From positions 124,001 to 188,000 of the forward strand of contig MDLA01000192.1 in the NCBI GenBank assembly GCA_001730015.1: a stretch of 64,000 bases of DNA, given 5' to 3'. This document shows positions 46,649 to 59,593 of this stretch, piece by piece. The position numbers were made by a program, and so were the translations under genes. Within the stretch, counting starts at the first letter, position 1. Every line of letters begins with the position of its first letter. The stretch comes from Chromatiales bacterium (ex Bugula neritina AB1). Its GTDB lineage: Bacteria > Pseudomonadota > Gammaproteobacteria > Granulosicoccales > Granulosicoccaceae. Under the pieces are notes generated by a model. That model searched no databases and had not been told where the DNA came from. It worked only from the letters and a program-made list of their open reading frames with translations.

Positions 46649-47611
46649 TTATTTAGTGAGCATATACTCGATAGCCCAGCGCAGCTCTTCATCACTAAGC
46701 TGGCTCCCTCCGCGAGGCTGCATAGCGCCTACACCAGAGATCACACTGGCCAGCAAGCCGTCAACGCCATTTTCCATGCGTTGTTCCCAGACTGCCTTGT
46801 CACCGTATCTGGGGGCATCGCCAATACCAGATAAATGACAGGCTGCGCACAGAGAGTCCACCTGCGCTTTTACTTTCTCAGGCACTTCCGAAGCCGCTAT
46901 AACCGGCTCATCAATGACGTCCGGCGGTACAACTTCCAGTGGTATTTCTTTGATGCCGGCATCCAGAGGTGCAACACTCACTGCATTCACTATCGGTGCC
47001 ATTGTATTGTTGTCAGATCCGATCGCGGTTTGCAGCAAATGAGCAACAGCCAGACGTAACTGATCATCATTTAAAGAACTTTCCGCTCGTGCCGGCATAC
47101 CACCTTTGCCCCTGATAACGCTCGCTGTCAGCGCATCTATTCCCTTTTCCGAGAGCACCTGCCAGGCACGGCTGTCGTCCATTCGTGGTGCATTACTGAT
47201 CCCGGTCAAGTGGCAGCCCGCACAGTTAACAGCAACGGTGGCCCGCACCCTGACTGAAATGGCAGAATCTTCAGTCTCAACTGTCGGGAGCAATTCAGCC
47301 GCTTGCACTGATGAAGTAGTAGTCATAGATGCGTCCGTGCCATCAACAAGCTGATCCTGATCTACGACCGCCGCACTGACTTCATCTACCGGTGCGGCAA
47401 CTGAAGGCACAACTGTCCTTACCGACTCGACCCTCGATTGTCCCACAGGGGAAATCTGCTGCAGAATCCGTTGCACAACCAGCGGATCAGAACCCGGATC
47501 CGCCTTTGGCGACAAAAGATTGGCCAACGCAATTATAAAGAGAGTGAACAGCACCAAAGCCCCGAGAACAAATACAAAAGGCTTATAAAAACTGGAGTCG
47601 TCGTGACTCAT
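46649..47611 (-). CDS. Membrane-anchored di-haem cytochrome c (cytochrome c5-like)
   Basis: The product has 320 residues. An N-terminal TM anchor (residues 12-33, FVFVLGALVLFTLFIIALANLL) is followed by a polar linker and two class I c-type domains. Domain 1 has CAGCH (about 134) and domain 2 CAACH (about 257). Each is followed by a GI.(N/D)APR stretch, and the second ends MQPRGGSQLSDEELRWAIEYM as in cytochrome c5. The Met in the GGMPAR and GAMQPR regions is the likely sixth ligand. It probably carries electrons to a terminal oxidase from the periplasmic face. See the anchor-only paralogue at 47820. Confidence 0.92.
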   Translation of the reverse strand: MSHDDSSFYKPFVFVLGALVLFTLFIIALANLLSPKADPGSDPLVVQRILQQISPVGQSRVESVRTVVPSVAAPVDEVSAAVVDQDQLVDGTDASMTTTSSVQAAELLPTVETEDSAISVRVRATVAVNCAGCHLTGISNAPRMDDSRAWQVLSEKGIDALTASVIRGKGGMPARAESSLNDDQLRLAVAHLLQTAIGSDNNTMAPIVNAVSVAPLDAGIKEIPLEVVPPDVIDEPVIAASEVPEKVKAQVDSLCAACHLSGIGDAPRYGDKAVWEQRMENGVDGLLASVISGVGAMQPRGGSQLSDEELRWAIEYMLTK

Positions 47612-47819
47612 TGGTATCTACACCTATGGTCGATCGATCGCGATTGCACCGGCAACCGCAATGCCCGGTTTGCATGCAACGACCGAATCACCGCAGACCG
47701 GGGATCCATATTATCTCTTCGTACACACATCATGAGAATGCGAAAAACAAAGAACGGACGGAACCCCGATTGATCAATATCCGCTGTCGCAAAGGAGTAT
47801 CGACCAATGAGAACAGGAT

Positions 47820-48014
47820 TTATGGCGATACCCTTGACTGACCAACCGGCATGAGTCGTTCCTGCGTCTGCGCAGCCACCAGAGGATCTGTTGAGGTCAT
47901 ACCTGGCGGAGAAAAAATATTCGCCATAGCAATAATGAAAAAAGTAAAGAACACCAGTGCGCCCAATACCATTCCAAACATTTTAAAATCTGTATCTTCA
48001 TACCCGCTCATCAC
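47820..48014 (-). CDS. Anchor-only paralogue of the cytochrome c N-terminus
   Basis: The product has 64 residues and a strong AGGAG upstream of ATG 48014 (a second ATG lies at 48011). The sequence MFGMVLGALVFFTFFIIAMANIFSP followed by STDPLVAAQ and MPVGQSRV closely mirrors residues 10-60 of the cytochrome at 46649 (FVLGALVLFTLFIIALANLLSP, DPLVV, SPVGQSRV). It stops where the cytochrome linker would continue, and no haem motif is found in any frame of the 208-bp spacer. It is either a small stable subunit (a partner or spare anchor) or the remnant of a duplicated cytochrome. Confidence 0.75.
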   Translation of the reverse strand: MMSGYEDTDFKMFGMVLGALVFFTFFIIAMANIFSPPGMTSTDPLVAAQTQERLMPVGQSRVSP

Positions 48015-48239
48015 GGTACTCCTAAAGTAAATAATATAAAGTTTAGTAAACCAACCGACGACACCCGCCGCGAATCGGCGGAGACACCGGCAATCTGCTT
48101 GCCAGACCGCTACGCCAAGCCGATATCATGGAATACCGATTTTGGCGAACCAGACCTGCGGGATCGCGATTTTAGCAAACCGCCAATCCATAATCACAAT
48201 ATACAGGGATTATCAGCTGCCCCTTACAGAACTCTCTCC

Positions 48240-48995
48240 CTACCGCAATGATCCAAACACCCGCTGCAAAAGCTCTGTCGTACGCTTGACCGGATTCTCC
48301 CGGATTGCCTTCTCCTCAACCGCCAGGTAATGGAAGATTCCATCCATAGCGAGTCCCACCACATGGTCTGTCAAATCAGCATCCACCTCCGGCGCCAGCG
48401 GTATGCGGTTGTAGCGATCCATGAAATCATTAAAGACGCGCACAGCACCTACCTCTGACAATGAAGATTCAACAATCGGCTCCATCTCGCTGATAAGCGT
48501 TGACCCCATCGACTGCCGAAAGTAGCTTGTTGCGGCGTCATCAGGCCCCTGAAGGATATTTTTAGCATCATCAAGCGTCATTTGCTGTATCGCCACCAGG
48601 AACAATTGCTGAGCCCGTGGAGTTGCCAGTTCCGCGGCCCGGTTCAACCGTAGTTCAAGTGAATCGAAGCTGTCACTCAAACCTACTTTTGCGGCAATCT
48701 TGCGAGTGCGATCGAGCGCGCTCGGCAGAGGAATTCGAATGGTCGGATCACCATTAAAACCATCTTCCCGACCAAGCTGTCTCACTACCTGCCTGGAACC
48801 GACCTTAAGCGCCTCCTTCAATCCACTTGCAATTTCGCTGACTTCAATGCCGCCATCGCCTCCTTTTGCAAACCCGCCGACCCGATCGATCTCCTTGAGA
48901 AGATCACCGCTGCTGGCACACGCGGCTAACAGAATTACGCTCGACAGAAAAAACGAAATACGTACAGACCAATGGGCAAAACTACAAATAGACAT
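48240..48995 (-). CDS. DUF4197 lipoprotein
   Basis: The 251-residue protein has a lipoprotein signal (SVILLAACASS, Cys at about 26). The body fits the DUF4197 family: GLKEALKVGSRQVVRQLGREDGF, RIPLPSAL, NRAAELATPRAQQLFLVAIQQMTLDDAKNILQGPDDAATSYFR. The function of the family is unknown. It is exported to the periplasm and lipidated. Alone on the minus strand, divergent from the 49304 gene. Confidence 0.88.
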   Translation of the reverse strand: MSICSFAHWSVRISFFLSSVILLAACASSGDLLKEIDRVGGFAKGGDGGIEVSEIASGLKEALKVGSRQVVRQLGREDGFNGDPTIRIPLPSALDRTRKIAAKVGLSDSFDSLELRLNRAAELATPRAQQLFLVAIQQMTLDDAKNILQGPDDAATSYFRQSMGSTLISEMEPIVESSLSEVGAVRVFNDFMDRYNRIPLAPEVDADLTDHVVGLAMDGIFHYLAVEEKAIRENPVKRTTELLQRVFGSLR

Positions 48996-49303
48996 CAGAC
49001 ATTTCCAGTAAATTGATTCAATTCATTAAATTTGCTGCCGGACTCTACACTCAATAAACAGCGTATCGGCGTATCGCAGCGGGTATTAAAATATAATTCA
49101 GATCTCATTATTAAACACCGGAGCCCGTCGATCGGCTTAAGCATTGCACAATTCGGCCGTTATCTGAGCAGTTGATTTTCAGTGTTGCTCGTTCAATCGC
49201 TGCGATCTTACAGGTATAAAAATACCAGTTCAAAATAATCATAAGAACAAGCGGCAGATTAAGTTTACGCCGCCCTACAACTGGTCAGGTGAGGATTTAG
49301 AAA

Positions 49304-49918
49304 ATGGCTAACATCGGTGGACTGAACTCAAGCGACCACATATCACATGCCCAGCAAAGCTCCAACGATCAAAACAAAAACTCTTCATCTGACTATCAGA
49401 ATGCTCCGCTAGGCGACCTTGCCAACAAAGCACGTGACGGTGATCAGACTGCCCTCGATAGACTTGCCGCGTTGATTTACGCGCTACAAAACACCCTGTC
49501 ACACGGTATTACGCCGTCAGCACCCACTGGCAACGCCAATCACTTAGGCGGCAATATTCAAACGACTAACCGCGACCTGCATGCCCCGCAGATGCGCATG
49601 CTAAGTGCCAGTAACCAGTTTTCCAACGGTGCTGCAATAAACGGCTCCACGGGCGCCGGGAAAGGGTTTAACAGTATCGGGGGGATTAACTCTCGTCAGC
49701 ACTCCATGGGCAGCAACTTTCAAGGCTCCGGCAGTGAGTCGAACTTTGAGGCAGGATCGGTCTTCCGTCGATCTAATGACATCTTTGATCAGGTTGCTGA
49801 ACTACTCGAAGAACAGCAACGCATTGGCATGCAATCCGCTCAGTTAACGGCATCATCCGGTGCAATCTCAAGCGCACTACAGGCATTGCAGTCTGTTGCA
49901 CGAAACATAAGAGCCTAA
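49304..49918 (+). CDS. Small Gly/Ser/Asn-rich protein preceding the HlyD-M50 cluster; possible client
   Basis: The product has 204 residues and no recognised family. It has no Sec signal and no Cys. The N-terminus (MANIGGLNSSDHISHAQQSS) is polar. Residues 33-65 form an amphipathic helix (APLGDLANKARDGDQTALDRL). The middle (65-150) is low-complexity Gly/Asn/Ser with a second IGGINS motif echoing the N-terminal IGGLNS. The C-terminal 45 residues are helical (DIFDQVAELLEEQQRIGM ... LQALQSVARNIRA). GAGG lies upstream of the ATG, and a TATAAT-like box is at 49092-49097. The gene is followed, on the same strand and after 310 bp, by two membrane adaptors and an M50 protease with a peptide-binding-type domain. 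It could be the substrate they handle; this is inference. Confidence 0.65.
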   Translation: MANIGGLNSSDHISHAQQSSNDQNKNSSSDYQNAPLGDLANKARDGDQTALDRLAALIYALQNTLSHGITPSAPTGNANHLGGNIQTTNRDLHAPQMRMLSASNQFSNGAAINGSTGAGKGFNSIGGINSRQHSMGSNFQGSGSESNFEAGSVFRRSNDIFDQVAELLEEQQRIGMQSAQLTASSGAISSALQALQSVARNIRA

Positions 49919-50228
49919 ATACCGCAGGCACATCCTGATCAATCCTTGCTGCGGGGGTTCGCAGCTGGCTTTCAACGGCCACCACTTATAGAAAAGCTGA
50001 CACCCGCATTTACCTGCCTAAAAGGTCAGGCCCCGGAACGCGGGTCGTCAACCATCTGCAAAACAGCGCACAGTTCATATTTTCCTGCTCCGGCAGACAA
50101 TTCCTTTGGTTCATTTGTTGCTGATCACATCTGTTAGCAACAACGTCTGTTCAAAGAACGGTACCAGAGGATTTTACCATCAGCATGCGTCTATTCCCAT
50201 CTGATCAGCACACCGGCGGAGTACCGTC
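49919..50228 (+). other. 310-bp spacer with a GC hairpin
   Basis: No gene is seen. GCTGCG (49948-49953) and CGCAGC (49960-49965) form a stable hairpin about 30 bp after the stop of the small protein gene; there is no T-run. It could act as a partial terminator or 3' stabiliser, making the small protein more abundant than the downstream membrane proteins. A GGAG ribosome site precedes the GTG at 50229. Confidence 0.45.
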
Positions 50229-52115
50229 GTGAATGTTGTTGCTGAGCTGCCTGTTAATGACGACGGACCAAAAAACAACTCGATCGGCCACATTGCTGAC
50301 ACCGATACCGGGTCAAGTAACGACGCTGAGCATGCTACACACACATTGAATCCGGGTGGGTTGAACAGCGAGCTGGCGAACCGCTGGTTACTCTGGCAGT
50401 GCCGTATGATCGCTGATGTAATCACCGGCTGTGTATTCGATATCAACGGAAATGTCCTCGCCACCCGACCAGCCCGGGGAGAAGGTTTCAGCATACTCTC
50501 CGACGCGGCAATGGAGGCGCGGCAGGCAGACCACTCATTCATTAAAACCGAAGTCACTTTCGGACCGTCCAACGGACGACTCGGCGATACCATCGCTACA
50601 CCAATCAAAGCCAACAATAAAACACTCGCTTACGTAGCAGTGCTCATGGCTCCACGACCTCAGTCGCGGCAGAATGTTGTACTTCAATTGCTGCAATGGG
50701 GAGGCTACTGGCTTGAATCACTAAGTCAGCTATCTGACGGCGTACATCAGGAAGCAGGATCTTTTACTCAATCGTTGCTGGTCGCTGTATTAAAGCATTC
50801 GAACTCCCGGAAAGCCTGCATGGAGATTGCAAATCGTCTCGCCGATCGGCTTAGCTGTGATCGGGTATCTATCGGGCTGCGCCAGGGTCTGGTTGTCAGA
50901 GCAGAGTGCATATCACACCTGGCGAGCTTTGATCCGCGTACGCAGCTGGTCAGGCGACTGGAAGCAGCAATGGAAGAATCGTTTGATCAGAAAACAGTGA
51001 TCAGCGCACCGCAAATAAAGTCAACCGGCGCCTGTATAGATAAAGCGCATCGCGAACTGCTTACACACAATGGAAGTTCCGTCGTCAGTACTTTCCCGCT
51101 AACAGGCCAGCAGCAAATATTCGGATCAATCGTATTTGAGCGCAGCACAAACAATCCGTTCGATTCCGACACAATCCGCTGGTGCGAAGCAGTACTGAGT
51201 TCCGTTGCACCGGTTATCGAACTAAAACGATTTGAAGAGAGATCACTGCGCAGCAAAGCTGCCGACTCCCTGCGCTCCTCTCTGACAGATCTAGTCGGCC
51301 CGGAATACCTGAAACTGAAAATGGCCGCTGTTTTCGTTGCAGCCATTCTCTTTCTTGGCTCTATTGTTAATGGTACCTACGAAGTATCGGCACCGGCCCA
51401 GGTAGAAGGATCCATCTCACGGGTAATTGCCGCCCCCATTGCCGGATTTGTAAAATCATCCAGCGTGCGCGCCGGCGATCTGGTCAAGGAAGGTGAAATT
51501 CTAGCCACACTTGATGACCGCTCGCTTCAACTGGAGTTGAAAAAATGGCAGGGCGAAGAAAATAAATTAAAAAAAGCCTACCAGGAGGCATTGGCAAAAA
51601 AGGCACGTACAGAACTGAGCATCCTGCGTGCGAAAGCAGATCAGATAGATGCGGAGCTCGCACTCACGTACCAGCGCATAGAACGCACACAACTTCGGGC
51701 ACCGTACAACGGCTATGTTGCCAGTGGCGATCTGAGCCAGTCCCTTGGTGCGCCGGTAGAAATAGGAGATGTGCTGTTTGAAGTGGCTCCGCTGGAGAAT
51801 TACCGGGTAGTGCTGGAAGTGGATGAGCGCGACATGGCGGGCGTTGAGAAAAACAACACCGGCGAAGTTGTCATCGCCGCCCTGCCTTCCACGCCTATAC
51901 CTTTTACTATAGATCAAGTTATTCCGGTAGCAGTATCCGGTGAAGGTAACAGTTATTTTCGAGTAGAAGCCACAATACCGGACCACACTCAGGAATTGAG
52001 ACCCGGAATGGAAGGCATCGCACGCATTGATATGGGCCATAGGAAATTATTATGGATCTGGACACACAATCTGGTTGATCGAATTAGATTGTGGCTGTGG
52101 TCAGTCGGTTGGTAA
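50229..52115 (+). CDS. GAF-domain HlyD-family membrane adaptor
   Basis: The 628-residue protein starts at GTG 50229 with GGAG upstream. The cytosolic N-terminal part includes a GAF-type sensor domain (about residues 190-335). One TM follows (about 360-380, MAAVFVAAILFLGSIVNGTY). The periplasmic part is HlyD-like: a biotinyl-lipoyl half (VIAAPIAGFVKSSSVRAGDL, about 398-417), coiled coil (440-490), the second lipoyl half (TQLRAPYNGYVASGDLS) and a beta-barrel. It ends with a Trp-rich amphipathic helix (LLWIWTHNLVDRIRLWLW) as seen in adaptors paired with M50 proteins. The M50 gene starts 16 bp later. Fusion of a ligand-sensing GAF to an export adaptor suggests signal-gated activity. Confidence 0.85.
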   Translation: MNVVAELPVNDDGPKNNSIGHIADTDTGSSNDAEHATHTLNPGGLNSELANRWLLWQCRMIADVITGCVFDINGNVLATRPARGEGFSILSDAAMEARQADHSFIKTEVTFGPSNGRLGDTIATPIKANNKTLAYVAVLMAPRPQSRQNVVLQLLQWGGYWLESLSQLSDGVHQEAGSFTQSLLVAVLKHSNSRKACMEIANRLADRLSCDRVSIGLRQGLVVRAECISHLASFDPRTQLVRRLEAAMEESFDQKTVISAPQIKSTGACIDKAHRELLTHNGSSVVSTFPLTGQQQIFGSIVFERSTNNPFDSDTIRWCEAVLSSVAPVIELKRFEERSLRSKAADSLRSSLTDLVGPEYLKLKMAAVFVAAILFLGSIVNGTYEVSAPAQVEGSISRVIAAPIAGFVKSSSVRAGDLVKEGEILATLDDRSLQLELKKWQGEENKLKKAYQEALAKKARTELSILRAKADQIDAELALTYQRIERTQLRAPYNGYVASGDLSQSLGAPVEIGDVLFEVAPLENYRVVLEVDERDMAGVEKNNTGEVVIAALPSTPIPFTIDQVIPVAVSGEGNSYFRVEATIPDHTQELRPGMEGIARIDMGHRKLLWIWTHNLVDRIRLWLWSVGW

Positions 52116-52131
52116 CTGAAGGCCTGACAAC

Positions 52132-54321
52132 GTGACTGAAGCTGCCGGAAACACACCAGAGAGCACCACTGCCGCGGACGGTATTCCAGAGCAATGGAGT
52201 CATATCTCATCGCTTCGACCACAGTTGCAACAGCATGTATCAGCACACCCTCAGGATTTTCGTGGTGTCAGATGGTATATCCTCAGTGATTCTGCTCGCG
52301 GCCGTCATCTTCGCTTCAATGAAATCGCCTATGAATTTATAGGGCGCCTGGACGGTGACCAGACCGTAGAGGAAATATATCAGCAACTTGAGACATCCGC
52401 CGATTATCAGGCTCTCTCCCGCCACGATATCGTTACCATACTTACACAGCTTTTTGCGGTTGAAGTACTGCGCAGTGGCCTGCCTACAGATGTCGAACAA
52501 ATGTTCAAGCGCAGCCAGGCTGAAAAGCAGGCTAATCGCATAAAGCGCTGGATGAATCCGCTGGCTATCCGTTTTCCGCTCTTTGATCCAGACGTCTTTT
52601 TAAATCGAGCCATCCCAACCATACGGCCTGTATTTTCACTGGCAGGAGCGGTGCTATGGTTCCTGGTGATTATGATCGCAGGGATGTTTCTGTTGATCCA
52701 CTATCAGGAGCTGGCTTTTGCTCTAAAGCAGGACATCCTGTCTCCGCGCAATATTTTCCTTGTAATCGCACTTTTTCCGATCATGAAGACATTCCACGAA
52801 TTTGCACACTCGTTTACCGTAAAAGCATGGGGCGGAGAGGTTCACGAGATGGGCATTACCCTGCTTGTATTAATGCCGGTACCCTATGTCGATGCCTCGG
52901 CAGCATGGGCTTTCAGAGAAAAATATAAACGAATTCTGGTTAGCGCCTCAGGCATGATCATGGAATTGTTTCTGGCAGCGCTGGCTTTTATCATCTGGAC
53001 TCTGGTACAGCCCGGTCTGATCAAAGATGCTGCACTATCTGCATTTCTTATTGGCAGTGTTTCTACCATACTCTTTAACGCCAATCCTTTGCTGCGATTC
53101 GATGGCTATTATATTTTGCAGGACTGGATTGAGATACCCAATCTCTATAGCCGATCAAGTCGCTACAATATTTATCTGCTTAAAAAGATTCTTCTAGGCC
53201 AGAACAATGCTGTCTCGCCGGTAACAGACCCGGGCGAAATCAAATGGTTTATCGGGTACGGTATCCTGGCCTGGATGTACCGACTGTTTATAACTTTTGT
53301 CATAGCGGTATTTCTTGCCAGCAAATTTCTGGTTCTTGGCGTAATACTGGCTGTCTGGTCTATGGTTTTACTGTTTGTAGTGCCAGTCTATCGCGGCATT
53401 CGCTATTTATTGTTCAACGATGCACTCACTGGAATAAGAACCAGGGCATTAAGCAGAATAGGTGGACTGGCAATGCTGATGTTAGCAACAATATCCATCA
53501 TTCCGTTCTCACTCTACACCAACGCCGAAGGCATAGTGTGGGTACCGGATCAGGCGCAACTCTATGCAAAAACCGACGGATTCGTACAAACACTTAGCAT
53601 ACCAGCCGGAACTCAGGTAAAGCCTGACACCACCGTATTGCAACTGGATAATCCAGACCTGCATACACGTAAGCTGGTTCTGAACGCAAAATATCGAGAA
53701 CTTTACGACAGACACAAGAGCGAGCGCTTCACTGATCCGGTGAAGGCCGAGCAGACCAAAGTTGAGCTGATTACCGTCGAAGCAGATATTCACTCGCTGC
53801 AGCTGGAACTGGAATCCCAGACACTCATCAGCCGCTCATCAGGCACACTGGTTTTTCCGGGAGAGCAGAATCTTGTCGGGCGCTATGTAGAGAAAGGTCA
53901 GGCCGTCGCCTATGTTGTCGATCCCGATCAGTTGATCGTGCGCCTGGTGGTCCCGCAGGCCGCTGTAGGGTTGCTGTCAAAAGAAATAAGAAACGTAGAA
54001 GTCAGGCTCGCCGACAGAGTCAGTAAAGTACTGGATGCAACAGTTATACGGCAGACACCATCAGGTAGCAATTCGTTACCAAGCCGTGCACTGGGTGCAG
54101 GTGGCGGCGGAGATATTGCTGTCGTCGGCAGCGATACCAATGGCACCACGACAGCGGAAAAGGTATTCCAGATAGATCTGGAGTTACCAGACAACAGTGA
54201 CGTTGCAGGTCTTGGAACACGAGCCTTCGTGCGGATCAACCATGGTCGTGAAATACTGGCCTCGCAGTGGCTCAGGAAGACCCGCCAGTTACTCCTCAAT
54301 ACGCTTCCCTTTTTAATGTAA
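52132..54321 (+). CDS. PqqD-like / M50 site-2 protease / biotinyl-lipoyl membrane protein
   Basis: The product has 729 residues (GTG start). Residues about 40-115 match a PqqD-like winged-helix domain (RGVRWYILSDSARGRHLRFN ... IGRLDGDQTVEEIYQQL), the fold used as a RiPP precursor recognition element. From about 180 to 440 it is polytopic, with zinc protease motifs HEFAH (residues 223-227) and NPLLRFDGYY (about 320-329), both intact as in S2P/M50 enzymes. The C-terminal third is an HlyD-like periplasmic lipoyl/coiled-coil region (YAKTDGFVQTLSIPAGTQVK, about 478-497) ending in an amphipathic helix. One chain thus combines peptide recognition, intramembrane cleavage and adaptor modules. It is flanked by two HlyD adaptors (16 and 19 bp). 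Confidence 0.87.
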   Translation: MTEAAGNTPESTTAADGIPEQWSHISSLRPQLQQHVSAHPQDFRGVRWYILSDSARGRHLRFNEIAYEFIGRLDGDQTVEEIYQQLETSADYQALSRHDIVTILTQLFAVEVLRSGLPTDVEQMFKRSQAEKQANRIKRWMNPLAIRFPLFDPDVFLNRAIPTIRPVFSLAGAVLWFLVIMIAGMFLLIHYQELAFALKQDILSPRNIFLVIALFPIMKTFHEFAHSFTVKAWGGEVHEMGITLLVLMPVPYVDASAAWAFREKYKRILVSASGMIMELFLAALAFIIWTLVQPGLIKDAALSAFLIGSVSTILFNANPLLRFDGYYILQDWIEIPNLYSRSSRYNIYLLKKILLGQNNAVSPVTDPGEIKWFIGYGILAWMYRLFITFVIAVFLASKFLVLGVILAVWSMVLLFVVPVYRGIRYLLFNDALTGIRTRALSRIGGLAMLMLATISIIPFSLYTNAEGIVWVPDQAQLYAKTDGFVQTLSIPAGTQVKPDTTVLQLDNPDLHTRKLVLNAKYRELYDRHKSERFTDPVKAEQTKVELITVEADIHSLQLELESQTLISRSSGTLVFPGEQNLVGRYVEKGQAVAYVVDPDQLIVRLVVPQAAVGLLSKEIRNVEVRLADRVSKVLDATVIRQTPSGSNSLPSRALGAGGGGDIAVVGSDTNGTTTAEKVFQIDLELPDNSDVAGLGTRAFVRINHGREILASQWLRKTRQLLLNTLPFLM

Positions 54322-54340
54322 TCGCTTGTAAGAGATTAAT

Positions 54341-55189
54341 ATGCGAACTTCCTATATCTATTTGAAAATCACCGCATTGCTCACGTTACCATTTTCGGTT
54401 ATGGCACAACAGACAACAGTATTGTCACTCGAGGGTGATCCGCTGAAAGCCATGGATTGCATTGTCGAGCCGAGTGAGATTGTCGAGCTAGGCAGCAGTG
54501 TTCCGGGGGTTATAGACAAACTGTACTTTGAGCGGAATAATTTTGTCAATGAAGGCGACACTGTTGCTGAACTCGATGCCAGAGTCGAACGTGCAACCCT
54601 GGAGCTGGCCACTGCACGTGCAGAAATCGATACCAGCCTGAATTTACGCAGAGAGAATGCCGCCTTTGGCATGCGCACTCAAAGCCGCAACCAGGAACTG
54701 TTCAATGAATCGACCATCTCGGCTCAGGATATGGATAAGGTAAAAACCGAAACGTACATAGCTCAGTTACAGGCACGTCAGGAAGAAGACAACAAACGCA
54801 TCGCAAAACTGGAAGCAGAACGCGCCTTGCAGGCACTTAATCAACGTACCTTGAAAAGCCCTATTGCCGGGGTGGTGATGGAGCGCTACAAATCAGTGGG
54901 CGAATACCTGGAAGCAGAACCTGTGTACCGTATCGCAAATTTAGACCCGTTACATGTTGAGCTTATTGTACCAGTGCAACAGCTGGGCTCAATTGCAACT
55001 GGAATGAAAGCCGAAATAACCATTGATCTCGAATCAGCCAGCAACGAAAAACACATAGCGATCGTCACCAGCGTTGATCGTGTAGCCGATGCGGCAAGTG
55101 GCACCTTTGGCGTACTGCTGAGCATGCCGAACTCCGGTTTCAGAATACCCAGCGGGGTGCGCTGCAATCTGGATTTCATCAGCGAGTAG
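54341..55189 (+). CDS. Periplasmic HlyD/RND-type adaptor
   Basis: The 282-residue protein has a Sec signal peptide ending about residue 22 (LPFSVMA). Lipoyl half-motifs VELGSSVPGVIDKLYFERN (48-66) and TLKSPIAGVVMERYKSVGEYL (about 170-190) flank a coiled-coil hairpin, followed by a beta-barrel. It has the size of a minimal periplasmic adaptor. It forms an operon with the M50 protein (19 bp). No outer-membrane TolC homologue or energising ABC/RND pump is found in the window. Confidence 0.87.
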   Translation: MRTSYIYLKITALLTLPFSVMAQQTTVLSLEGDPLKAMDCIVEPSEIVELGSSVPGVIDKLYFERNNFVNEGDTVAELDARVERATLELATARAEIDTSLNLRRENAAFGMRTQSRNQELFNESTISAQDMDKVKTETYIAQLQARQEEDNKRIAKLEAERALQALNQRTLKSPIAGVVMERYKSVGEYLEAEPVYRIANLDPLHVELIVPVQQLGSIATGMKAEITIDLESASNEKHIAIVTSVDRVADAASGTFGVLLSMPNSGFRIPSGVRCNLDFISE

Positions 55190-55507
55190 CAGAGCGGAGC
55201 TCGATAGCATTCCACCTCCACACTGACACCGGGGAAGCCATCGCAGCTCCATAGAGCTTGCGTTCAGCATAGCTCGATCCACAGACACCTCCAGGTCAAA
55301 CCCCTGGAGCCGTCACATTGACTACTTACCTGTTTAGTCAGGCACATCTTTGCCGCCATTCATACTAACTGGCACTTTGACTTACATCGAAACCCCATCG
55401 TATTAATCAGCAATTCGGGCGAATGCAGAGCGCCGGAGCGATGGTTTCCAGTAACGAATACTACAGTTGATGGAGAGTTACCAGACTAGTGAAGCGGGTG
55501 TTATCAA
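55190..55507 (+). other. 318-bp spacer with a 7-bp hairpin
   Basis: No gene is seen. CTCCAGG (55289-55295) and CCTGGAG (55303-55309) form a perfect stem about 100 bp after the adaptor stop; there is no T-run, so it is a possible terminator or processing site. The promoter of the c-di-GMP gene should lie in 55320-55490. Confidence 0.45.
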
Positions 55508-58500
55508 ATGATTAAATTTATTCGCTCTCCGCTATTTCGCATCAGCTTCAGCATGATGATGCTGGTTGTATCGATTCTTCTCGCCAGTGAACTGCTGGGT
55601 CTGTTCCCCAGTTCGAACAAAGACAGTCTCACCCAACGAAAATTCATCGTTAACACGTTAGCGGTGCACGTCGCTATGGAACTCGACGGCGATAGCCAGA
55701 AAATCTCTGAGATGCTGCGCACAACGGTTACGCGTAATCCTATAGTCGCCTCGGTGGCAATACGGCGTTCCGACAATACCATCATCGACATGTACGGTAA
55801 CCACGTTGAAAACTGGACACTGAAGCCTACAGACAAACCAACGCCAACCCAGGTACAAGTACCTCTCTATGAGGGTGAACGACAGACCGCAACGGTCGAA
55901 ATCCGTTTTAAACAACCAAACGAGGGCACAAGCCTGCTGGACCGGCGAGCCTCATTTCCCAACGTAGTGATATTCGTCGCACTGTCCGCATTCTTCGCTT
56001 TCAATATGTTTCTTAAGCGCACACTGCGGGAACTCGATCCGGATGCTGTTATACCTGAACGGGTGCGAAAAGCACTGGATACTCTGGCGGAAGGCTTGCT
56101 GATTATCAACCGCGAAAATGAAATCGTTTTCTCCAATGCTGCATTTGCCCGCACAATAGGACTTTCCGCCACAGATCTGGCCGGAAAAAGCTGTGACACG
56201 TTAAAATGGCAGACTGACGAATCCAGTGAATTACCATGGATTCCTTTAATCAACGGCGGCGAGATCGCAAGCGGCGCAACCGTCAGATTGAACACAGGCT
56301 TCGAACAACTTTCGACATTCACCGTAAACGCAACACCAATTATTGCGCAGGCCGATGAAATCCGTGGCGCTCTGGTCACCTTTAACGACATAACAGAGGT
56401 CGAAATCAAAAATGCCGAACTGCGCAATGCCCTGGTTAATCTGGAAAAAAGCCAGCTGGAAATTACCCGCCAGAACGAAGAGCTGGAATATCTGGCCACT
56501 CGAGATCCACTTACGGGCTCACTGAACCGACGCTCATTTTTTAACGGTTTTGATTTACTGTTTGCAGAAGCACGCCAGAATCAGGACGAACTGACCTGCA
56601 TCATGACCGACATCGATCACTTCAAAGCAGTGAATGACACCCACGGCCACGGTGTGGGCGATGAGGTCATAAAGTACCTGGCCGACGTACTTGCCGAACA
56701 TTCCCGCCCGAATGACCTGGTCGGTCGATTCGGTGGCGAAGAATTTTGTATTGTAATGCCCGCCACGTCGCTGCATGAAGCTGCCAATCTGGCCGAGACA
56801 CTTCGGGATACACTGGAGAAAGGGATTGGTGCAAATTTCCTCGACAAATGTCAGATTACAGCCAGTTTTGGCGTCGCATCAATTCATTCGGGTGCTAGTA
56901 AGCCGCACGATATGGTAGAGCAGGCAGACAGAGCGTTATATTTTTCCAAAGAGAACGGTCGCAACAAGGTGACTAACTTCACCAGTGCGATGGAAGATTC
57001 CGAGTTCACTTCAGGTTCAGCAGCAGACAGCACCGCTGAACCACAGCCGGCTATCGCACCGACACCAGTGATTAAAGTCGCACCGGAGCCACCGGTACCC
57101 GTGCTCGCGATAAAAAACACAGACCAGAAAACTCCGCTGGCCGACTTACCCAAAGCGACCCAAAAAATGATCAGGGAAGACTCATCAGTCCCTGTACTGC
57201 TGCTGAAAACGCCAACGCCTGAATCAAATAATTCACAGAAGAAAACCGACGTCGGTACCCAGCGGCTAGAGCGTAACCTGCTTCTGGATCGCGTGGATCA
57301 GGCATTGCAGGTTGCCACTCGCAAAAACTATCATGTTGGCGTACTGCTGCTTTCTATCAGTGCTTTGCAACGTATTAACGATACCCTGGGTTTTTCAGTC
57401 AGTGAGAAACTCTATCTAAAGATCGTCAGCCGCTTGAAAACCGTCCTCAATGACGAAACAAATATAGGACTGATCGGCGCTGGCGAGCACAATATTGCAA
57501 TCACCCGATATGGCGACACCGGAATCTGCCTGACGCTGAACGATATAAAACACATCAGCGACTTTAATATTATTCATGAGCGAATAATGGACGGATTCAA
57601 CCGTACAATTTCGGTGGATGGTCATGAAGTGTACGTATCCATGGATACCGGAGTGAGCGTCTATCCGAATCACGGTACCGATGCCGATATTCTGATACGC
57701 AGCGCCAGTATCGCTATGCGTGAAGCGCGCGACGGTTCGGGTCAAAACAATATAGTTTTCTACTCTCCCGATATGAACCAGACCTCTCGTAAGCTGATTC
57801 GTTTGGAGACCGAGTTACATCAGGCATTGTCACGCAATGAGCTATTCGTAGCTTATCAGCCGAAAATTGATTTACGCACCGGCGCCATTGTCAGCATGGA
57901 AGCACTAGTTCGTTGGCGTCATCCGGAATTCGGAATCGTATCACCAGGTGAATTCATTCCTGTGGCAGAAAAAACCGGGTTAATAAACCAGATAAGCGCC
58001 TGGATAACCCGGGTTGTATGCGCTCAAATATCGATGTGGCGAGAAGCCGGCTATAAAGATCTTAGCGTGGCGGTAAATATCTCGCCGGCAGAGATGAAAA
58101 ACGGATTGCTCGCAGACAATATACTTAATGCGATACGTGAATTCGATATACCACCAAATACACTGGAAGTAGAGATTACCGAATCTCTGGTAATGCAAGA
58201 CATGAATATGGCTATTCGCACTCTGGAAAAGCTGGAACGCAATGGCGTAGAAATATCGATCGACGACTTCGGCACCGGCTTCGCCTCGCTAAGCTATCTG
58301 AAATTGTTCCCTATATCCAAGGTTAAGATAGATCGCTCCTTTGTCTCAAACTTTGAAACCAACCTGGCTGACGCTCGAATTGTCAGTAGTGTTATTGCGA
58401 TGAGCCATAGCATGGGTGTTACGGTCGTTTGCGAAGGTGTAGAACGAGAAGACCAACTGCGCTTTTTGCAGGATCACCACTGCGATGAAGTTCAGGGAAA

Positions 58501-58705
58501 TCTACTGAGTTTGCCACTCCAGCGTCAGGAAGCCACCAATCTGCTAGCCAACCCGAGACGAATCAAGCGCATGATTACCAGCTACAACGCAGCAGAATTC
58601 GGTCTGTCTACTGTCAACGCTGCCGGCACGCAAACGATTATAACGGGCGTTCTAAACGCTTTTCCCGATGAAGAGCAACCCCGATTGAAATCTGCGACTC
58701 CCTAA
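55508..58705 (+). CDS. Membrane PAS-GGDEF-degenerate GGDEF-EAL cyclic-di-GMP protein
   Basis: The product has 1065 residues. Two TM segments (about 10-28 and 150-166) frame a periplasmic sensor region. A PAS domain (about 185-300) and a helical linker follow. GGDEF domain 1 has an intact GGEEF site (409-413), so it is a probable diguanylate cyclase; no RxxD inhibitory site five residues upstream is obvious. A Pro/Thr-rich linker (about 505-590) leads to a second GGDEF-fold whose site is RYGDTG (667-672), so it is inactive. The EAL domain has EAL at 798-800 plus ITES, DDFGTG, KID and EGVE, so it is a likely active phosphodiesterase. Having both activities plus a spare GGDEF module implies signal-dependent switching. 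It may control the upstream export cluster or biofilm functions. Confidence 0.93.
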   Translation: MIKFIRSPLFRISFSMMMLVVSILLASELLGLFPSSNKDSLTQRKFIVNTLAVHVAMELDGDSQKISEMLRTTVTRNPIVASVAIRRSDNTIIDMYGNHVENWTLKPTDKPTPTQVQVPLYEGERQTATVEIRFKQPNEGTSLLDRRASFPNVVIFVALSAFFAFNMFLKRTLRELDPDAVIPERVRKALDTLAEGLLIINRENEIVFSNAAFARTIGLSATDLAGKSCDTLKWQTDESSELPWIPLINGGEIASGATVRLNTGFEQLSTFTVNATPIIAQADEIRGALVTFNDITEVEIKNAELRNALVNLEKSQLEITRQNEELEYLATRDPLTGSLNRRSFFNGFDLLFAEARQNQDELTCIMTDIDHFKAVNDTHGHGVGDEVIKYLADVLAEHSRPNDLVGRFGGEEFCIVMPATSLHEAANLAETLRDTLEKGIGANFLDKCQITASFGVASIHSGASKPHDMVEQADRALYFSKENGRNKVTNFTSAMEDSEFTSGSAADSTAEPQPAIAPTPVIKVAPEPPVPVLAIKNTDQKTPLADLPKATQKMIREDSSVPVLLLKTPTPESNNSQKKTDVGTQRLERNLLLDRVDQALQVATRKNYHVGVLLLSISALQRINDTLGFSVSEKLYLKIVSRLKTVLNDETNIGLIGAGEHNIAITRYGDTGICLTLNDIKHISDFNIIHERIMDGFNRTISVDGHEVYVSMDTGVSVYPNHGTDADILIRSASIAMREARDGSGQNNIVFYSPDMNQTSRKLIRLETELHQALSRNELFVAYQPKIDLRTGAIVSMEALVRWRHPEFGIVSPGEFIPVAEKTGLINQISAWITRVVCAQISMWREAGYKDLSVAVNISPAEMKNGLLADNILNAIREFDIPPNTLEVEITESLVMQDMNMAIRTLEKLERNGVEISIDDFGTGFASLSYLKLFPISKVKIDRSFVSNFETNLADARIVSSVIAMSHSMGVTVVCEGVEREDQLRFLQDHHCDEVQGNLLSLPLQRQEATNLLANPRRIKRMITSYNAAEFGLSTVNAAGTQTIITGVLNAFPDEEQPRLKSATP

Positions 58706-58834
58706 GGCTCGTACTCACACCGGCCTGGTGTTGTTCAACTGAACCCGAAACCCGGCGGGAAAGCCAATAAACAAGGCAATCCAAAATACAAGCCGTTAGA
58801 ATTCATTTTACCCTGATTACCCCTGATCATCACC

Positions 58835-59593
58835 ATGGCTAGCAGAAACACTCTATCAACCGGCAAATCAATTGTGCTGGCGCTGTCACTACTCGTCAAC
58901 ATTGCTTTGCTGGCAGGTTTATATGTTCTATCAAATAAATTCAGATATCTCTATATAGACTACCGCCATTTTCGCTCCCAGGAGATCGGCGTCAGCAGTG
59001 CCACACTGACAGACAGCACCGATCAAACGCTGCAAAAAATTGTACTGTTCGGCGACTCCCGCATTGAAACCTGGGATCCTCTGCCGTCCCTGGATAATTT
59101 TAGTATCCTAAATGCCGGTGTCATTGGTGAAACCACAACAGAAATGCGCCGCCGGTTCACTACCGATGTTCTTCGCCACACACCGGAAGTGGTGGTGATT
59201 CAGGCCGGTATCAACGATCTCACCGCCGCAGCCACACGTGATATCCCGGAACCTGATGCACTTATCAGCGCAATGCACAGGAACATAGAATATTTTTTAT
59301 CGGAGCTGGAAAAAAGCAATACACAGGTTCTGCTATTTTCTATTATTCCAACAAATGAATTTAATCTATTGCGGAAATTTTTCTGGTCACCGTCACTAGG
59401 CGAATCGATCGAGGCCAGCAATAGAAAGCTCCAGGCGCTCGCCGCAAAATACAACGCCCAATGGATAGACGTCACCAGCGACTATGAAGATGAAAACAAA
59501 AACCCTCGTGCCGAACTGTTCGCCGACACGCTACACATTAACTCACAGGGCTATAAGGTATTAAACAACCGACTGACGAGCCTGCTGAAATAA
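58835..59593 (+). CDS. SGNH/GDSL-type hydrolase, membrane-anchored
   Basis: The product has 252 residues. An N-terminal hydrophobic segment (about 12-32, IVLALSLLVNIALLAGLYVL) acts as signal anchor. The catalytic blocks are present: FGDSRIE (Ser), NAGVIGETT (Gly), QAGINDL (GxND, Asn) and DTLHINSQGY (DxxH). This family includes esterases and O-acetyl or acyl hydrolases acting on cell-surface glycans; the substrate is not evident. It is a monocistronic gene on the plus strand. Confidence 0.9.
   Translation: MASRNTLSTGKSIVLALSLLVNIALLAGLYVLSNKFRYLYIDYRHFRSQEIGVSSATLTDSTDQTLQKIVLFGDSRIETWDPLPSLDNFSILNAGVIGETTTEMRRRFTTDVLRHTPEVVVIQAGINDLTAAATRDIPEPDALISAMHRNIEYFLSELEKSNTQVLLFSIIPTNEFNLLRKFFWSPSLGESIEASNRKLQALAAKYNAQWIDVTSDYEDENKNPRAELFADTLHINSQGYKVLNNRLTSLLK

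Follow-up and report, generated by a model that had tools for sequence, protein, structure and literature searches.

The DNA discussed here is a stretch of 64,000 nt (hereafter the window) on contig MDLA01000192.1 of Chromatiales bacterium (ex Bugula neritina AB1), whose 7.4-Mb draft genome (G000) is 98.6% complete and 5.1% contaminated. Our subject is an operon of three genes, in which an M50 site-2 protease carrying a PqqD-like domain and an HlyD arm is encoded between two HlyD-type adaptors, and which we discuss as a candidate export or processing module for giant surface proteins. Together with the gene preceding the operon, four open reading frames (ORFs) of 204, 628, 729 and 282 amino acids (aa) are found on the plus strand, at the coordinates given in a preliminary description of the window. 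The features of the locus are the following:

50229..52115, plus strand: GAF-HlyD inner-membrane adaptor, 628 aa, with one hydrophobic segment at residues 360-384 (Pfam; syntenic in the genus)
52132..54321, plus strand: PqqD-like domain of the RiPP recognition element (RRE) type, M50 site-2 protease and HlyD arm, 729 aa (Pfam, profiles and M50 tree; 14 of 14 genomes of the genus)
52195..52530, plus strand: PqqD-like N-terminal domain of the latter, as the stretch in alignment A2 (PF05402 with 24.9 bits when scanned alone; A2 profile against 3g2b and 6jx3_B)
54341..55189, plus strand: HlyD-type periplasmic adaptor, 282 aa (family scans; syntenic)
55508..58705, plus strand: PAS-GGDEF-EAL protein, 1065 aa, conserved downstream neighbour (Pfam; synteny in the genus)
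49304..49918, plus strand: 204-aa protein, a lineage-specific insertion and probably no core part (distribution and synteny; the ~50 aa at its C-terminus are those of a small-protein family with scattered members)

The operon genes are spaced by 16 and 19 bp, and ORF and family scans confirmed the order GAF-HlyD, PqqD-M50-HlyD and HlyD on one strand, as first described. HlyD-type adaptor families (PF13437/PF16576) are present in all three products; in the 628-aa protein they are above the cut-off together with the GAF domain (PF01590, 28.2 bits, cut-off 22.4), and the 282-aa protein likewise exceeds the cut-off of an HlyD family. Neither an ATP-binding cassette (ABC) transporter nor a TolC-type protein was found among the eight window proteins scanned with Pfam (46649-59590), and the same eight proteins include no decarboxylase, aminotransferase or methyltransferase of the kind partnering daptide proteases. 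The window has no Rfam match, and between 48990 and 50400 there is no promoter-like site and a single terminator-like site on the minus strand, a count not above that in shuffled sequences.

In the full-length Pfam scan of the 729-aa protein only HlyD_3 passes (33.3 bits, cut-off 22.2), M50 (PF02163, 21.1 against 27.2) and PqqD (19.7 against 23.4) both remaining below their cut-offs. The zinc-ligand motifs of the protease are intact, with HEFAH at residue 222 and NPLLRFDG at residue 318, and among 73 M50 relatives HExxH is present in all and the NP..DG pattern in 59. Scanning the 112-residue N-terminal stretch alone raised PF05402 to 24.9 bits, above the cut-off of 23.4. A profile of 45 such PqqD-like regions (A2) matched, among the sequences of the PDB, PqqD itself (3g2b, E = 7.9e-5) and TfuB1 (6jx3_B, E = 7.3e-4), and PF05402 in turn matches 26 of the 45 members at E ≤ 0.05. 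TfuB1 and TbiB1 are binders of lasso-peptide leaders. At the level of sequence profiles the domain, which precedes the first membrane segment of the protein, is thus supported as a candidate substrate-binding domain of the RRE type.

The operon is old and the 204-aa gene is new in the lineage. Each of the 14 genus genomes encodes a close relative of the M50 protein, and 36 of the 57 relatives searched yield a match (the copy of G002 is split across two contigs). Gene order (GAF-HlyD, M50, HlyD, GGDEF-EAL) is maintained in the 13 genus loci compared, except for one cut by a contig edge. The GGDEF-EAL gene, which the preliminary description had left out, is part of this conserved locus and was found in 12 of the 13, the last one (L066) stopping at a contig edge.

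Mapping the neighbours of related M50 genes revealed that many of them adjoin very large ORFs with LEPR-XLL-like N-termini. LEPR-XLL is a named NCBIfam domain (NF012209), and one such giant is known from a Vibrio (PMC10868602). Repeats of the tandem-95, VCBS and cadherin-like kinds occur in the giants beside M50 genes, and the three of them that were scanned also have DUF4347 (PF14252). The association extends through the class: among 321 genomes, 45 encode the M50 protein (E ≤ 1e-20) and 28 contain the LEPR motif (model at E ≤ 0.005), both being present in 25, the motif only in 3, the M50 protein only in 20 and neither in 273 (Fisher p 7e-22, a value inflated by the shared ancestry of the genomes). 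At most three M50 candidates were scored in each genome, so the copy numbers of M50 are minimum values. The LEPR model, applied to 14 named genomes as a control, matched none at E ≤ 0.005 and seven at E ≤ 1, one of these above the cut-off.

Two variants of the motif can be distinguished, LEPRxLxSAD (SAD) and LEPRxxLDGA (DGA). LEPR matches exceed the cut-off in every one of the 14 genus genomes, and motifs of the SAD type that look real occur in 13 of them, judging from the 70 of 79 rows that were read; the exception is G008, which is 77% complete. The nine remaining rows are eight short or weak matches with E > 0.1 and one (G007, contig C211) that is seen in locus L168. The motif lies at a median of 21 (79 SAD instances) and 30 (18 DGA instances) residues from the chosen start, and the stretch preceding it consists of about 20% Lys and Arg. 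A hydrophobic 17-mer ahead of the motif was found in only one of 75 SAD and none of 15 DGA sequences scored. It should be noted that the SAD and DGA sets were defined by these patterns, so that their conservation at the positions concerned adds no independent evidence. The longest LEPR-XLL open frames comprise 14112 (G274:C84:83224), 13848 (G088:C1:429854) and 12249 (G142:C1:2506229) residues. The host genome of the window contains the following SAD-type candidates, all unlinked to the operon:

L300:3542-16855, contig C67: 4437 aa (start chosen by us), with matches to DUF4347, cadherin, CBM9, pentaxin and C-type lectin
Contig C110: LEPRILFSSD, cut by the contig edge
Contig C161: LEPRILFSAD, frame interrupted
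Contig C133: short frame

The variant of the motif follows the phylogeny of the protease. In a tree of 73 M50 sequences (FastTree only, with a long-branch warning), 20 loci could be labelled by their linked motif, nine as SAD and eleven as DGA, and the two labels are split exactly between two M50 clades, requiring one change on the tree, a number as low being reached in none of 500 label shuffles. Two adjacent giants in loci of the SAD clade (L138, LEPRILLAAD; L153, QERRILFSAD) escaped the pattern and were left out of the count. The window M50 protein sits in the SAD clade. Counted per genome of the class, all 17 genomes with SAD-type motifs have a SAD-clade M50 protein and all five with DGA-type motifs a DGA-clade one, G336 belonging to both groups; the motifs of G211 and G317 are intermediate and their M50 proteins form a separate branch, and G213 has a weak match. 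Within the genus, DGA-type clients and DGA-type M50 proteins occur together in nine genomes, the client alone in one (G001, 80% complete), the M50 protein alone in none, and neither in four (p = 0.005); seven of these nine M50 proteins were placed by the tree and two (G002, G009) by score.

The related operons also differ in accessory genes, in counts that are lower bounds because of contig edges. A gene for a SecA-like ATPase of ~650-730 aa is found inside M50-HlyD operons of the SAD side only (14 loci, among them L080:12748-14781; 14 of the 47 rows there and none of the 26 on the DGA side), while a TolC-type (OEP) gene accompanies 12 of the 26 rows of the DGA side against none of the 47. The SecA-like protein of L080, the one examined, shares with SecA the DEAD, P-loop and cross-linking domains as well as the GEGKT and DEAD motifs; it is unlike SecA in its size and in being encoded within the M50-HlyD operon. 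Neither the window operon nor any genus locus compared has a SecA-like gene; in the genus, PF07517 yields one strong SecA match per genome, as far as the assembly allows, and a second weak one (~25 bits). A second M50-HlyD operon of G000 (C121:21829-23889, L059) belongs to the DGA clade; its M50 protein is 24% identical to that of the window, and it is adjoined by a TolC-type gene and a VCBS/tandem-95 protein.

Given the computed synteny, adjacency, co-occurrence, motif-clade pairing and PqqD-like profile match, we consider it fairly probable that the operon at 50229-55189 is one subtype of a widespread, leader-guided, ABC-less export or processing module for giant LEPR-XLL surface proteins, its clients being unlinked here. 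For binding, cleavage, conduit, energy supply and coupling to cyclic di-GMP (c-di-GMP) we infer the following course. The client N-terminus (rich in Lys and Arg, devoid of a Sec-type hydrophobic stretch and continuing into LEPRxLxSAD) would dock onto the PqqD-like domain in the cytosol, much as RRE domains hold the leaders of ribosomally synthesised and post-translationally modified peptides (RiPPs), and the intact site-2 protease would cleave close to this leader, either before the client passes or while it does so. The three HlyD-type arms could bridge the periplasm as a conduit towards a channel in the outer membrane, which one subtype encodes and the window subtype would borrow. The SecA-like ATPase is the likely motor in one subtype, and housekeeping SecA may possibly serve the window subtype. 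The conserved GGDEF-EAL gene may couple the module to c-di-GMP. In G000 the putative clients would be the unlinked LEPRxLxSAD proteins, for example the 4437-aa DUF4347/cadherin/CBM9 protein on contig C67.

Among known systems, the module resembles type I secretion and tripartite HlyD-TolC assemblies in its HlyD-family adaptors, in the TolC-type channel of one related subtype (L059) and in the cadherin, VCBS or RTX-type repeats of its likely clients, the LEPR-XLL/DUF4347 proteins; it differs in that no ABC transporter was seen, that the conserved sequence lies at the N-terminus of the client and that PqqD-like and protease domains are fused. Daptide biosynthesis offers the other parallel. According to PMC10036551, the daptide RRE is fused N-terminally to a site-2 protease and daptide clients carry the motif ELExMEAP; daptide clients and the putative LEPR-XLL clients have in common a short conserved N-terminal motif of acidic and hydrophobic residues. 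The model of the daptide intramembrane metalloprotease (NF041824), an N-terminal RRE-type domain followed by an M50 protease, covers residues 31-417 of the window protein, which adds a C-terminal HlyD arm, an operon of HlyD proteins and likely clients of thousands of residues.

A broader proposal can be put forward more tentatively, and we hold it with less confidence than its opposite: that we are dealing with a distinct secretion pathway, in which N-terminal LEPR-XLL motifs act like leaders and mark proteins for export, their reader being an RRE-type domain joined to an intramembrane protease and an HlyD arm, with the motif variant matched to the clade, with SecA-driven, TolC-linked and minimal subtypes, and with neither an ABC transporter nor a Sec signal peptide. 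Such a pathway would export surface proteins with open frames of up to ~14,000 residues, and modules of recognition familiar from small peptide natural products would have a second use in the sorting of giant adhesins; the pairing of motif variant and machine clade provides a built-in specificity control. LEPR-XLL giants are common surface proteins; the open-access literature searched contained no description of their export route, nor one linking LEPR-XLL or DUF4347 proteins to a PqqD-M50-HlyD operon.

Several observations weigh against the export module. No giant is linked to the window-type operon in any of the genus loci compared, and its client can therefore only be assigned in trans, by inference; moreover, the protein on contig C67, the sole client read whole in G000, reads LEPWVLYSAD, with Trp replacing Arg. 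In the class, 20 of the 45 M50 genomes lack a motif match at E ≤ 0.005, five of which (G016, G147, G196, G328, G339) show the motif beside the gene by eye, and three genomes (G111, G155, G247) have a motif match and no M50 protein even at E ≤ 0.001, that of G155, in a 99-aa frame, looking like chance. Of the tree rows, 53 of 73 have no labelled motif and were left out of the pairing count, and the pairing itself reflects a single evolutionary split, which co-descent of neighbouring genes would explain as well as recognition does. As to the PqqD-like domain, 19 of the 45 A2 members are not matched by PF05402, and 5sxy, 5v1u (TbiB1) and 5vrd match A2 at E 0.02-0.4, intermixed with unrelated chains. 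A single-sequence AlphaFold2 model of residues 1-135 consists of helices only (mean predicted local distance difference test, pLDDT, 69; predicted template modelling score, pTM, 0.61) and does not confirm the winged helix with a three-stranded sheet expected of an RRE; the client-binding RRE first suggested for this region stands at the level of sequence profiles (PqqD, TfuB1). M50 and HlyD proteins serve other processes as well.

The best of the alternatives, which we nevertheless regard as unlikely, is that the module retains giants at the surface or releases them, in a control of the LapA/LapG kind, with the M50 protease cutting for release instead of export. The same co-occurrence and pairing data apply to it and the conserved GGDEF-EAL neighbour fits control by c-di-GMP, but an N-terminal motif and a PqqD-like domain ahead of the first membrane segment fit an encounter in the cytosol, and a SecA-like ATPase or an outer-membrane channel in some relatives fits transport. 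Rather improbable is a RiPP-type, daptide-like maturation and export of an unrecognised short peptide, with the LEPR link due to lifestyle or co-descent: the fused architecture of the daptide protease and the match to NF041824 (E = 1.4e-46) speak for it, yet this match amounts to 159.4 bits, below the curated 300, no daptide-type enzymes are encoded by the scanned neighbours, and the variants of the motif go with the clades of the M50 protein. An envelope-stress or efflux-type assembly with no protein client appears very improbable, since no resistance-nodulation-division (RND), major facilitator superfamily (MFS) or ABC pump was found among the neighbour proteins scanned with Pfam and the LEPR-XLL link is strong, even if the HlyD families also resemble RND adaptors (TIGR01730 is above cut-off for the 628-aa and 282-aa proteins).

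Least probable of all is the client originally proposed, the 204-aa protein, bound by the PqqD-like domain, cleaved by the M50 protease and handed to the HlyD arms: its gene lies on the same strand next to the operon in both species having it, it lacks a Sec-type hydrophobic N-terminus and the domain has its profile support, but distribution and synteny led us to reject it, as the gene occurs in 2 of 14 genus genomes against 14 of 14 for the operon, the LEPR-like motif (L[EQPSD]xRx[LM]) is absent, and the tail of the protein recurs at nine other places in G000 with no operon beside them. The co-occurrence of the small protein with homologous operons, suggested at the outset as a check, thus goes against the client idea. 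The gene, 310 bp upstream of the operon (~590 bp in the sister species G013), is probably an unrelated newcomer. That the ORF is beyond chance follows from the 232-aa homologue (48.5% identity, BLASTP) which G013 holds at the equivalent position; protein and profile searches found none in the remaining 55 of the 57 relatives. Measured from ORF coordinates with longest-ORF starts, DUF4197 and GAF-HlyD are ~1230 and ~1570 bp apart where the gene is present (two species) and ~80-790 bp apart in the remaining 11 genus loci as well as in L072, which belongs to another genus. The composition described earlier was confirmed, with 35% Gly, Ser and Asn and without a strongly hydrophobic 17-residue stretch; Cys and Trp are absent. 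A structure model of the protein with four relatives (pLDDT 55.7, pTM 0.26) places helices at 36-44, 48-66 and 150-203, with disorder in the middle part.

The last ~50 residues of this protein recur at ten places in G000 (its own included) and six in G013, with none found in the rest of the 57 relatives. The copies are mostly stand-alone proteins of ~55-70 residues with a conserved ARNIR-type C-terminus, at the following sites:

Window 49754-49915; L048, L049, L050, L051, L052, L054-L058 and L095: ~55-aa helical proteins of the tail family

Four tandem copies on contig C128 encode identical 55 residues and differ pairwise in 25-30 of 165 nt, in a synonymous manner, from which we conclude that the protein sequence is under strong selection. 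Pfam gave sub-threshold helical-repeat matches only, and nothing significant was found among PDB sequences. Type III secretion (a needle- or harpin-like role of the 204-aa protein and the tails) was rejected, because G013, with six tail copies and 98% completeness, has no FHIPEP match; G000 has two. A phage or plasmid origin was likewise discarded, the 204-aa protein being unmatched in plasmids, one 54-aa member in phages, and four tails and the 204-aa protein in PHROGs. P450 genes lie near two small-protein genes (L050:5085-9499, L055:1675-2901), one of which also has a B12-binding radical SAM gene nearby; these neighbours are inconsistent between copies and a NAD-glutamate dehydrogenase flanks another, and a RiPP cluster around the small proteins was not accepted. 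An exact 22-nt inverted-repeat element stands ~41-46 nt upstream of three tail genes (L048:7815-7836, L054:7102-7123, L058:7811-7832) and, allowing up to one mismatch, nowhere else in the 14 genus genomes; with GGA in its loop, one might guess at a post-transcriptional regulator. RNA folding of one small-gene copy gave z -0.24. GC-rich hairpins with T runs, read by eye, typically follow the tail genes at their 3' side. A wider search, consisting of one pattern-based scan of genome contigs, retrieved four loci of the family, all from one Granulosicoccaceae metagenome-assembled genome.

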